Shown piece after piece: positions 14,705-30,328 of a stretch of DNA of 32,454 nucleotides. Each line of letters starts with the position of its first letter. Position 1 is the stretch's first letter. A program made the position numbers and the translations under genes. This DNA comes from Candidatus Melainabacteria bacterium GWF2_37_15 (lineage in GTDB: Bacteria > Cyanobacteriota > Vampirovibrionia > Gastranaerophilales > UBA9971): NCBI GenBank assembly GCA_001784565.1, contig MFRL01000024.1:1-32454 (forward strand), given 5' to 3'. The notes under the pieces were generated by a model. That model saw only the letters and a program-made list of their open reading frames with translations, had not been told where the DNA came from and searched no databases.

Positions 14705-16462
14705 TTATAACTGACGTCCAAAAAATCCCGCTATTTCCTGCCTGGAAATCACATGGGCTATTTTTCTTCCATGTGGGCAGGTTTTTGGGTAAGATGTATT
14801 CTGCCAGTTGATTATAAGTTCTTCCATTTGCCCAATAGATAATCTTTCTCCTGCTTTAACAGATGAAAGGCACGCTGTCCTCATTAATAGTTCATTTTCT
14901 ATTATTTCTGGAGATGATTCTAGCGCCTCTATTAGGTCATTTACTATTTTTTTAGGGTCTTTTTCAGCAATTGTCTGTGGTATCCGCTTTAATTTTATAC
15001 CAAAATCAATAATTTCAACCTCATAGCCATATTTATTAAGCAAATCAGCATTTTCCCTGAACAGATTGTATTGTTCAGGAGTAAGTTCTATCACCTCAGA
15101 TGCCAGCAATAACTGCGATGCATAATTTTTTTCCCTTTTCAGCTTTTCATAAAGCGCTCTTTCATGCGCTATGTGCTGGTCAATGATTTGCAGTCCGTCT
15201 TTTGCCTGGATAAGAATGTATGTATTTTCAAGCTGACCAATGATTCTAGGTTTTTCCACAAACAGATCATAGCCATCCGACTCAACTTCAAAGCGTTTTT
15301 GTACAGAGGCAGGAGCAAAACTTACTTCCTGAATATCGTCATCTTCGATTTCCTGCGTTATTGCCTTTGGGAAATTGATTACTTTTGGAATTTCGTAGGG
15401 TGCATTTATGCACCCTTGTTGTTCTGGTGCATAAATGCACCCTACATCTTGAGAATGACGTTGAGGCGCAACCCCCAGTGCCCCTTTAATAGCAGAGTAC
15501 ACAAAATTAAATATTAGGTTTGGTTTTGAGTATTTTACTTCCTTCTTTGTTGGGTGAACGTTTACATCTATCTCTTTTGGCGACATTAAAATGTTCAAAA
15601 CCACATATGGATACCTGCCAGACGGAATCATATCACTGTATGCCGTATCAATTGCCTTGGAAATGATCGGACATTTTACGGTTCTACCGTTAATAAAGGT
15701 ATAAATGGCTTTTTTATTTGACCGGGTAAAGTCCGGGTTGCTCGCAAATCCGTGTATCTTGAGGTTAAACTGCTCATCTTCCTTATTAATTTCAACCAGC
15801 TCGCTGATTATTTCACTTGAATAAACCTCACCGATAGTAGCAGCCAGATCATTACTCCCTATTGTCTTAAATATAGTATTTTTGTTATGTATAAGTGTAA
15901 AAGCAATGCCCGGGTTTGAAATAGCCAGGCTTTGCACAATCTCTGATATAGCAGCCATTTCAGTTTGTGTCTTTTTCAGGAACTTTAACCTTGCTGGCAC
16001 GTTATAAAACAGGTCATTTATTTCCATTGTAGTACCGATTGCGCACCCTGCGTCAGAAAAACTAACCTGTGAATTTTCACATTTAACCTTCAAACCGGTT
16101 TCAGAATCTTTAGTTCTTGTGGTACAGATAACTTTAGCAATAGAAATCATGCTGGAAAGAGCTTCTCCACGAAAACCCAGCGTAGAAATAGACCATAAAT
16201 CGTTTATTTTCTCAATTTTACTTGTAGCATGGCGTGAAAAAGCAAGTAATATGTCATCTTTATGTATGCCGCCACCATTATCTGCTACCCGTATATCACG
16301 TGTAGCGTTAGATATTTCAACCTCTATTCTTGTAGAGCCAGCATCAATAGAATTTTCTACCAATTCCTTAACTACAGACGCAGGCCGTTCAATCGCTTCG
16401 CCGGCTGCTATCTGGTTAATAAGGTTATCAGGCAGTTGTTTTATACGTTTCGTAGTTATCAT
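14705..16462 (-). CDS. mutL: DNA mismatch repair protein MutL (endonuclease type)
   Basis: The N-terminal GHKL ATPase has motif I KELVENSIDAG (32-42), motif II DNGGGI (61-66) and motif III TLGFRGEAL. The C-terminal dimerisation domain has DQHIAHERALYE (the DQHA-x2-E-x4-E nicking motif with Ile for Ala), an ACLSSVKAGE motif and CPHGRK, ending FGRQL. These mark the nicking form used where MutH is absent. The length of 585 is slightly short. The start is ATG 16462; there is no SD, but an extended -10 ends 7 nt upstream. The interdomain linker contains a perfect palindromic repeat (15395-15445) read in frame, encoding the region VGCIYAP...GCINAPY. It leads a two-gene unit with the SEC-C gene. Confidence 0.97.
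   Translation of the reverse strand: MITTKRIKQLPDNLINQIAAGEAIERPASVVKELVENSIDAGSTRIEVEISNATRDIRVADNGGGIHKDDILLAFSRHATSKIEKINDLWSISTLGFRGEALSSMISIAKVICTTRTKDSETGLKVKCENSQVSFSDAGCAIGTTMEINDLFYNVPARLKFLKKTQTEMAAISEIVQSLAISNPGIAFTLIHNKNTIFKTIGSNDLAATIGEVYSSEIISELVEINKEDEQFNLKIHGFASNPDFTRSNKKAIYTFINGRTVKCPIISKAIDTAYSDMIPSGRYPYVVLNILMSPKEIDVNVHPTKKEVKYSKPNLIFNFVYSAIKGALGVAPQRHSQDVGCIYAPEQQGCINAPYEIPKVINFPKAITQEIEDDDIQEVSFAPASVQKRFEVESDGYDLFVEKPRIIGQLENTYILIQAKDGLQIIDQHIAHERALYEKLKREKNYASQLLLASEVIELTPEQYNLFRENADLLNKYGYEVEIIDFGIKLKRIPQTIAEKDPKKIVNDLIEALESSPEIIENELLMRTACLSSVKAGERLSIGQMEELIINWQNTSYPKTCPHGRKIAHVISRQEIAGFFGRQL
15395..15445. repeat. Palindromic element inside mutL
   Basis: A perfect 20-bp inverted repeat: GTAGGGTGCATTTATGCACC (15395-15414) against its exact complement (15426-15445), with an 11-nt loop. 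Each arm is itself nearly palindromic (GGTGCAT/ATGCACC). The element keeps the mutL frame and falls in the disordered linker. Its ends resemble the intergenic palindrome at 27254-27280 (GTAGGGGCGCACATA...). Confidence 0.85.
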
Positions 16463-27227: not shown

Positions 27228-27255
27228 GAAAAATTAAATTATTAAATATATGTAG

Positions 27256-27277
27256 GGGCGCACATATATGTGCGCCC
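27256..27277. repeat. Palindrome 1 of hpf 3' cluster
   Basis: Perfect 22-nt palindrome beginning GGGCGCACATA, preceded by GTAG as in the mutL element. It starts 29 nt after the hpf stop. Confidence 0.65.
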
Positions 27278-27284
27278 TAATTAC

Positions 27285-27310
27285 TTGGGCAGACACCCAG
27301 GTCTGCCCAA
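27285..27310. repeat. Palindrome 2 of hpf 3' cluster
   Basis: TTGGGCAGAC/GTCTGCCCAA, a 10-bp perfect stem around ACCCAG. Confidence 0.65.
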
Positions 27311-27320
27311 ACATCCATGC

Positions 27321-27409
27321 TGTCCTCGGCGTCAAAAGGGTTTTTAAAGGGGAAATTGGCCGCTGCGCGGCCAATTTCCCCTTTAAAATTACTTAATACG
27401 TCAAGGACA
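27321..27409. repeat. Nested palindrome 3 of hpf 3' cluster
   Basis: A 21-bp perfect inner stem (27343-27363 with 27367-27387; loop TGC) is framed by an outer imperfect pair, TGTCCTCGGCGT (27321-27332) and ACGTCAAGGACA (27398-27409), which match at 10 of 12 positions. It would form a long cruciform. Confidence 0.65.
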
Positions 27410-27740: not shown

Positions 27741-27754
27741 GTAATATATGGTTG

Positions 27755-27763
27755 TGTTATATT
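27755..27763 (+). promoter_or_regulatory. Extended -10 of mutS, leaderless geometry
   Basis: TGT-TATATT ends 6 nt before ATG 27770 with no SD. It lies just after the small gene's terminator. Confidence 0.45.
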
Positions 27764-27769
27764 TTTAAT

Positions 27770-30328
27770 ATGAACAACCTGAATCTCACCAAAACCTGTG
27801 ACATAAACCCTGAACACGCTACACCAATGATGCAGCAGTTTCTGCAAATAAAAAAACAGCATCAGGGAGTTATCTTGTTTTATAGAATGGGTGATTTTTA
27901 TGAAATGTTTTTTGAGGATGCAGTTTTAGGGGCAAAGGAACTCGAACTTACTCTCACAGGCCGCGACGGCGGCAGGCTCGGTAGGATACCAATGGCTGGC
28001 GTCCCCCATAAAGCCGCTGATAACTACATTGCACGCCTGCTGGAAAAAGGCCACAAAGTAGCTATATGTGAACAAATGGAAGATGCAGCTTTAGCAAAGG
28101 GGCTGGTTGAGCGAAAAGTCGTAAAAACCATCACTGCCGGCACAATCACTGATATAAACCTGTTACAGGGTTCAAAAAATAACTATCTTGCAGCAGTGAC
28201 AAACGTGCAAAAATCCTGTAAGCGCGGCTTTGCTTATGTGGATATTTCAACGGGCGAATTTAAAATTTCAACACTCGGCTATGATCAATTAATATCTGAA
28301 ATTAACAGAATTGAACCTTCTGAAATATTATGTGTATCGCAAAAAAGAGAAATAAAACCTTTTCAAATTGTACCTGAAGAACACCCTGACTTGCCCGAAA
28401 CTGTAATAGCTAATTATAATTGCACTGTAAGGGCAAATGCCGCATTCTACAAAGAAACAGCACTTGAAAAAATAAAACAGGCATTTAATATAAAATCCCT
28501 GGAAGCATTCGGCTTTCCTGAATACACAGAAGGCCTTATTGCTGCGGGTGTGATTATTGATTATTTACTGGAAACACAACAGGATAACCTGCCCAAATTC
28601 GATGTTATAACGCCGTATGAAACCGGCTCATTTGTTGCAATAGACAGCAGCGCAAGAAGAAACCTTGAACTCGTACAGACAGTGCGAGATAACAAATACG
28701 AAGGCAGCCTCATGTGGGCGGTAAATAAGACAAAAACCAACATGGGCGCACGACTTTTAAGAAAGTGGATACAACAGCCTCTTCAGGATATTAACGAAAT
28801 TAAACAACGCTACTGTGCGGTTGAAGAACTTATTGAAAACCCAAAAATACGCACTGATGTTGCCAATTTACTTGATAAAGTATACGACATAGAGCGGCTT
28901 GCTACAAAAATAAGTAATAATTCTGCAAATGGCCGGGATTTTATATCATTGCGGGATTCATTAAAGGTCTTACCTTTATTTGGCAATATCCTTTATAACA
29001 CCAAATCCCCCTTACTCAATAAATTTAGTGAAAAAGATGAAAAAATCTCTGACTTCACAGCCCTAATAGATAAAACAATTGTTGAAGAACCGCCTATAAG
29101 CATTAAAGAAGGCAATTTAATTAAAAGAGGCGTGCATGAGGAACTGGACTACCTTAAAAGCCTACTTTGCGACGGTCAGGAATGGCTGGCTGATTTTGAA
29201 AAAAGGGAAAAGGAAAGATCAGGCATAAAGTCCTTAAAGGTAGGATATAGCAAGGTTTTTGGTTATTTTATAGAAATCACGCATGCCAACACCGCACAGG
29301 TACCAAATGACTACATAAGAAAACAGACCCTGACAAGTGCTGAAAGATACATTACTCCTGAATTAAAACAGCATGAAAACGAAATATTAAGCGCAGGCTC
29401 AAAAAGCGCAGAACTTGAATATCACACTTTCTGCAATTTCCGGGAATATTCCAAGGAGTTCGTAGATGCAATTAGAGATATAGCAAAATCGCTTGCTGTA
29501 CTGGATGTAATGCTTTCATTTGCTCAAACAGCGGTAGAATACAACTATGTAAAGCCGGTAATTGATAAATCCCGGGATTTAGTCATTGAAGAAGGCCGTC
29601 ATCCGGTAATTGAGCAGTTACTGCCGCTCGGCAGCTACGTACCCAATGACCTTGATATTACTTCTCCCATGCTAATGATACTTACCGGGCCCAACATGGC
29701 CGGAAAATCCACCTTTATGCGACAAAACGCCTTAATAATTATTCTTGCTCAAATAGGCAGCTTTGTTCCGGCAAAGTCGGCACGCATCGGCATAGTGGAC
29801 AAGATTTTCACCAGGGTGGGCGCAGTTGATGACCTCTCAACAGGACAGTCAACATTTATGGTAGAAATGACTGAGACTGCAAGTATTTTAAACTCCGCAA
29901 CAGACAGAAGCTTTATCCTGTTAGATGAAATAGGCAGAGGGACAAGCACATATGACGGCGTTGCAATAGCCTGGAGCGTTGCAGAGCATATAACCCAGAA
30001 TATAGGCGCAAGAACCATATTTGCAACACACTATCACGAATTAAACATAATGTGTGAAAAACACCCGGAAATCAGAAATTTCAGGATGACTATATCTGAG
30101 AACGAAGATGAAATAATATTTTTAAGAAAAGTAGTTCCCGGCGGGGCAAGCAGAAGTTACGGAATACAGGTTGCTAAGATGGCAGGGCTGCCTGCATCAG
30201 TCATTGCAAGATCACAGCAGTTAATGACCAAAATGCAGAAAGATTACGCCGCGCAAATATCAACTAAGAAACGCAATAATAGTGAAGTTCAGGCGGACAC
30301 GCCGCAATTGTCACTTTTTATAGAGTGA
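27770..30328 (+). CDS. mutS: DNA mismatch repair protein MutS
   Basis: This is the mismatch-recognition ATPase. The 852 residues match MutS1 length. Domain I carries the mismatch wedge F-x-E in FYRMGDFYEMF (about residues 37-47). The connector, lever and clamp domains follow. The ATPase has Walker A TGPNMAGKSTF (around 639-648), the FTRVGAVDDLSTGQSTFM signature, Walker B LLDEIGRGTSTYDG and ATHYHEL. The last residues, TPQLSLFIE, hold a beta-clamp-binding motif (QLSLF). A start 18 nt upstream (27752) keeps the frame open, but ATG 27770 matches the family start and the -10 spacing. Its 3' end overlaps ispE by 40 nt, tail-to-tail. It works with the MutL encoded 11 kb away. Confidence 0.97.
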   Translation: MNNLNLTKTCDINPEHATPMMQQFLQIKKQHQGVILFYRMGDFYEMFFEDAVLGAKELELTLTGRDGGRLGRIPMAGVPHKAADNYIARLLEKGHKVAICEQMEDAALAKGLVERKVVKTITAGTITDINLLQGSKNNYLAAVTNVQKSCKRGFAYVDISTGEFKISTLGYDQLISEINRIEPSEILCVSQKREIKPFQIVPEEHPDLPETVIANYNCTVRANAAFYKETALEKIKQAFNIKSLEAFGFPEYTEGLIAAGVIIDYLLETQQDNLPKFDVITPYETGSFVAIDSSARRNLELVQTVRDNKYEGSLMWAVNKTKTNMGARLLRKWIQQPLQDINEIKQRYCAVEELIENPKIRTDVANLLDKVYDIERLATKISNNSANGRDFISLRDSLKVLPLFGNILYNTKSPLLNKFSEKDEKISDFTALIDKTIVEEPPISIKEGNLIKRGVHEELDYLKSLLCDGQEWLADFEKREKERSGIKSLKVGYSKVFGYFIEITHANTAQVPNDYIRKQTLTSAERYITPELKQHENEILSAGSKSAELEYHTFCNFREYSKEFVDAIRDIAKSLAVLDVMLSFAQTAVEYNYVKPVIDKSRDLVIEEGRHPVIEQLLPLGSYVPNDLDITSPMLMILTGPNMAGKSTFMRQNALIIILAQIGSFVPAKSARIGIVDKIFTRVGAVDDLSTGQSTFMVEMTETASILNSATDRSFILLDEIGRGTSTYDGVAIAWSVAEHITQNIGARTIFATHYHELNIMCEKHPEIRNFRMTISENEDEIIFLRKVVPGGASRSYGIQVAKMAGLPASVIARSQQLMTKMQKDYAAQISTKKRNNSEVQADTPQLSLFIE

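Follow-up and report, generated by a model that had tools for sequence, protein, structure and literature searches.

The window analysed here, the whole 32,454-nt stretch of contig MFRL01000024.1 from Candidatus Melainabacteria bacterium GWF2_37_15, encodes an intact DNA mismatch repair protein MutL on its minus strand (mutL, positions 14705 to 16462, 585 aa). The gene was identified with Pfam and NCBIfam models and scored 506.6 bits against TIGR00585 (cut-off, 180). Inside it, a repeat search of the window found a 20-bp inverted repeat whose arms (15395 to 15414 and 15426 to 15445) are 100% complementary and separated by 11 nt. Both the search and the reading frame confirmed the earlier description of this hairpin as an exact repeat translated within the MutL linker. 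The minus-strand mutL frame runs open through the element, in phase and with no stop. The element totals 51 nt, or 17 codons, and encodes the peptide VGCIYAPEQQGCINAPY (MutL residues 340 to 356), which falls between the Pfam domains DNA_mis_repair (residues 211 to 329) and MutL_C (residues 408 to 541).

Each arm has the anatomy of a REP. In the first, on the plus strand, a GTAG tag (15395 to 15398) is followed directly by the palindrome GGTGCATTTATGCACC (15399 to 15414), which forms a 7-bp stem. The second arm is identical and inverted, on the minus strand, beyond the 11-nt spacer CTTGTTGTTCT (15415 to 15425). The pair (15395 to 15445) is an inverted GTAG-REP doublet, or REPIN, belonging to neither strand in particular and folding into one hairpin with a perfect 20-bp stem and the spacer as its loop. 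Four of the six frames of the 51-nt sequence are free of stops, the other two phases reading the TAG of the tag. The arm has two matches in the window and none in 100 dinucleotide shuffles of it, even when three mismatches were allowed. A search of Rfam with the element gave no match.

The arm is repeated elsewhere in the window genome, a draft of 2.27 Mb in 102 contigs that is 92% complete. Ten exact copies were found at seven loci (two each at C7, C34, and C24, the last being mutL, and one each at C20, C39, C42, and C63), with nine further matches at 1 to 3 mismatches, while the reversed arm, used as a control, had no match in this genome. The dispersed copies anticipated in the original prediction therefore exist, although they amount to ten exact arms and not to dozens of identical palindromes. 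In this genome and in that of a second bacterium, STE_97 (see below), the repeat is dispersed, multicopy, and mostly intergenic, most copies having no spanning open reading frame (ORF). The GTAG tag lies 5' of a short palindrome in most copies of both genomes, and the tag and the TTTA loop keep the same orientation in nearly all of them. Full doublets with exact arms occur at C7, at C34, and in mutL, the partner at C39 being truncated. The other measured doublets of the family are 50 and 49 nt long, with spacers of 10 and 9 nt, and would shift a reading frame, whereas the 51 nt of the mutL doublet would not. Because the mutL spacer is unlike those of the other doublets, insertion of the doublet as a single unit is an inference. 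Copies of two sister families, GGTGCGCNNNNGCGCACC and GGTGGGCNNNNGCCCACC, are scattered through the window genome as well (37 sites together, with at most one mismatch). The 50-nt doublets at C7 (4449 to 4498; L088) and C34 (7978 to 8027; L090) are intergenic and have long flanks in common, in opposite orientation, that include a CACCCTGAACTTGTTTCAGGGTC-like palindrome; both could be pieces of a larger repeat.

A doublet scan of 84,980 species genomes, which may omit records belonging to the window's own genome, returned one other record, JAQVKX010000064.1, from Candidatus Gastranaerophilales bacterium isolate STE_97. The 16-nt palindrome has 34 copies in STE_97, where doublets are also found, and the MutL of this isolate is only 50% identical to that of the window. 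Within the order, the exact arm is present in 3 of 383 genomes, i.e., the window genome (10 copies), STE_97 (30 copies), and one genome with a single copy. The presence of an identical 20-nt REP in two distant members of the order, together with its absence from the other 380 genomes, suggests that a RAYT family either moved horizontally or survived patchily. The mutL gene of STE_97 is represented by two contigs (L069 and L070) that overlap in its C-terminal part and differ at one codon near a contig end, where one has a TAG stop and the other glutamate. We read this difference as a strain mixture or a sequencing error; inspection of the sequence showed that the internal TAG is not derived from a REP.

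Two full-length RAYT genes are present in the window genome, at C71 and C67, both flanked by sister REPs. The former has GTAGGGTGCGCTATTGCGCACC doublets on either side, and the latter has a doublet of (TAG)GGTGGGCTTTAGCCCACC on its upstream side and one copy on its downstream side. No RAYT flanked by the exact REP of the mutL element was found in this 92%-complete genome; the cognate gene may lie in the absent 8%, may have been lost, or a sister RAYT may act in its place. In STE_97, by contrast, a RAYT gene (C93, 13115 to 13483) has this exact REP on either side. All three RAYTs pass the NCBIfam model NF047646, "REP-associated tyrosine transposase" (146 to 151 bits; cut-off, 80), with pairwise identities of 46 to 55%. 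A Y1_Tnp match at C34 was rejected as a RAYT, being a partial domain match with no flanking REP. Related RAYTs were found in 23 of 60 relatives, the window genome included, and many RAYT loci of the order adjoin a GTAG hairpin, each of its own sequence (e.g., GTAGGTTGGG...).

The alignment of the window MutL with 29 other MutL sequences revealed a linker whose length and sequence differ widely among relatives. The 17-residue peptide was found in none of the 29, in line with the expectation that it would be particular to this protein. The nearest MutL available for an insertion test (G002, 72% identical) lacks the 17 residues and aligns with the window MutL end to end across both flanks of the element. 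Removal of residues 340 to 356 raised the alignment score against G002 from 476 to 495, the best result among 85 placements of a 17-residue deletion (tied with deletions starting at 336 and 337), in a variable linker and with no empty site of the same genus in the set. Against MutL proteins more distant than G002, the linker is too variable for this deletion to be informative. The possibility that the mutL linkers of relatives are repeated targets of palindromes was also rejected, as a comparable linker palindrome was found in 0 of the 29 genes. Together, the copies and the alignment support the earlier proposal that a dispersed palindromic repeat entered mutL, in frame and in the linker.

The share of copies inside genes was judged on the stretches around REP matches. 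The more general claim that the family enters genes in frame held for mutL, but no further in-gene copy of that family was seen in the window genome. Among the REP sites examined there, the one other REP deep in a long ORF is a single REP of a sister family, in frame in the gene of a Wzy-like membrane protein (C18), where it reads SGGLKPTLQNL. STE_97 has one REP in frame within a fused fumarase, at the junction of its two parts; the linker of relatives at this point is about as long but differs in sequence. A second REP lies within the LpxK gene. All remaining copies examined were intergenic or at gene edges. At C42 (5397 to 5416; L092), the GTAG of a single REP gives its stop codon to an ORF that we take to be queC-like. 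REPs at the N termini of STE_97 ORFs (L129, L079, L138, and L137, and L053 upstream of smc) and the C80 REP of the window genome were not taken as in-gene copies, since translation probably begins downstream of them.

According to the main text of Di Nocera et al. (2013; PMC3733652), bacterial REPs fall into GTAG and CGTC superfamilies, and GTAG REPs occur in Cyanobacteria. Single and dimeric REPs are reported there inside genes, many of which are replication and repair genes, and neighbouring ORFs often get a TAG stop from GTAG REPs. Insertions in flexible linkers were argued to be possibly neutral, and mutators were a matter of speculation. The repeats described here resemble the GTAG REPs of that text in their tag, short stem, small loop, inverted dimers, and mostly intergenic position. 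The likeness extends to dimers lying in frame within genes, several of them for DNA repair, and to the use of the tag's TAG as a stop, as at C42. The mutL dimer adds 17 residues, versus the 20 to 30 given in the same text for dimers and groups. That main text does not mention mutL, and the passages compared here do not mention the Gastranaerophilales; the supplementary list of intragenic REPs may hold an earlier mutL case.

REPINs were defined as REP doublets that form hairpins and are tied to RAYTs (PLoS Genet. 2011; PMC3116915). Doublets were over-represented relative to singlets in 17 of 20 REP classes, a trait that is typical but not defining. The mutL element shares with these REPINs the inverted doublet, the single hairpin, and the link to RAYTs. 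Its family differs in having few copies (ten arms and three exact doublets), spacers of 9 to 11 nt, and more singlets than doublets, STE_97 holding mainly singlets and the window genome few doublets. RAYT enzymes of Stenotrophomonas and Marinomonas cut single-stranded, perfectly palindromic REPs next to GTAG (PMC8266576). These REP and TnpA-REP systems have, as here, a perfect palindrome after the GTAG, with a loop of 3 to 4 nt, and the TTTA loop is common to the Marinomonas REP and the REP of the mutL element. The stems differ, and the RAYTs of our genomes are known from sequence only.

The suggested kinship with Rickettsia palindromic elements (RPEs) was not supported. Like an RPE, the mutL element is a palindromic repeat lying in frame inside a protein-coding gene (51 nt, no stop). 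However, RPE-4 and RPE-6 carry the CGTC tag, CGTC REPs being described as lacking a dedicated transposase (PMC3733652, main text), and they belong to another host group, while the tag here is GTAG and the same or sister REPs stand beside RAYT genes. The tag and the adjoining RAYT genes thus place these repeats among GTAG REPs and REPINs and not in the RPE class.

The explanation we favor, with a probability of about 0.88, is that a GTAG REPIN moved by a RAYT landed in the mutL linker and was retained, being in frame and in a tolerant linker. The element would belong to the non-autonomous single-strand mobile elements whose movement is attributed to RAYTs (HUH, IS200-like), and single-stranded GTAGGGTGCATTTATGCACC is a candidate substrate of the STE_97 RAYT. 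One copy would have landed between the ATPase and dimerisation domains, in a linker that varies freely and so probably accepts 17 residues. It would have stayed because its 51 nt contain no stop in the phase used and add only these residues to the protein. The effect on MutL is probably close to neutral, a neutral insertion being most likely.

A functional hairpin is unlikely. Under this alternative, the 20-bp stem in the mRNA would slow or attenuate mutL translation, or the peptide would alter MutL, giving a mutator or tuned repair of the sort that was speculated about in 2013 for repair genes with REPs. The predicted fold of the 91-nt stretch with the element is indeed very stable (−36.8 kcal/mol, with shuffled sequences averaging −13.4; z = −8.7), and the main text of PMC3733652 reports that intragenic REPs often fall in genes for replication and repair. 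Nevertheless, the site of the insert is a linker that separates two domains and differs greatly in length and sequence among relatives, and the other in-gene copies are in non-repair genes (Wzy-like protein, fumarase, and LpxK). Less probable still is that the REPIN lowers the activity or amount of MutL, through the hairpin or the peptide, and acts as a RAYT-driven, removable tuning insert of mismatch repair. This is conceivable because 51 nt can enter or leave without a frameshift, but its support goes no further than the stable hairpin and the published pattern of REPs in repair genes. That two contigs were wrongly joined at the repeat is highly improbable, even in a draft of 102 contigs, given that both flanks encode a single continuous MutL that aligns end to end with its closest relative and that a 51-nt repeat is probably shorter than a typical read. 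The poor conservation of the linker makes absence from relatives weak evidence if taken alone, and would leave room for a native linker sequence that is palindromic by chance, with no insertion. The odds of this are negligible, as it is already contradicted by the identical 20-nt arms found elsewhere in the genome (six further loci, most of them intergenic) and by the 30 in a distant species. Strong hairpins of this kind are found in bypassing elements, but a ribosome that skips the hairpin and never makes the 17 residues, GCIYAPEQQGCINAPY included, is barely credible, since the open frame continues in phase and needs no bypass.

In-frame intragenic REPs have already been described in other bacteria, and the mutL REPIN is a clean further example. 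With it, the REP/RAYT system and the in-frame insertion of its repeats into genes reach the Gastranaerophilales, which are related to Cyanobacteria but non-photosynthetic, and mutL brings mismatch repair into the set of repair genes reported to carry REPs. The mutator suggestion of 2013 becomes simply testable with this case, a single element of 51 nt that occupies a flexible linker.

The same window contains further palindromes near mutS (27752 to 30328). One of them, located at 27254 in the original prediction and spanning 27252 to 27279 (GTAGGGGCGCACATATATGTGCGCCCTA), had been linked to the mutL element. The two share the tag, the GTAGGG start, and the dyad layout, but the core at 27252 to 27279 is different and was seen once across all stretches examined, so this palindrome belongs to another family and is not a second copy of the mutL repeat. 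It is followed by another REP-like palindrome, TGGGCAGACACCCAGGTCTGCCCA (27286 to 27309), which resembles a dispersed GGCAGAC...GTCTGCC family. This tandem (27252 to 27309) lies about 440 bp upstream of mutS, and a 22-bp inverted repeat follows it at 27342 to 27388. One window thus holds both mutS and mutL, each with REPs in or near it.
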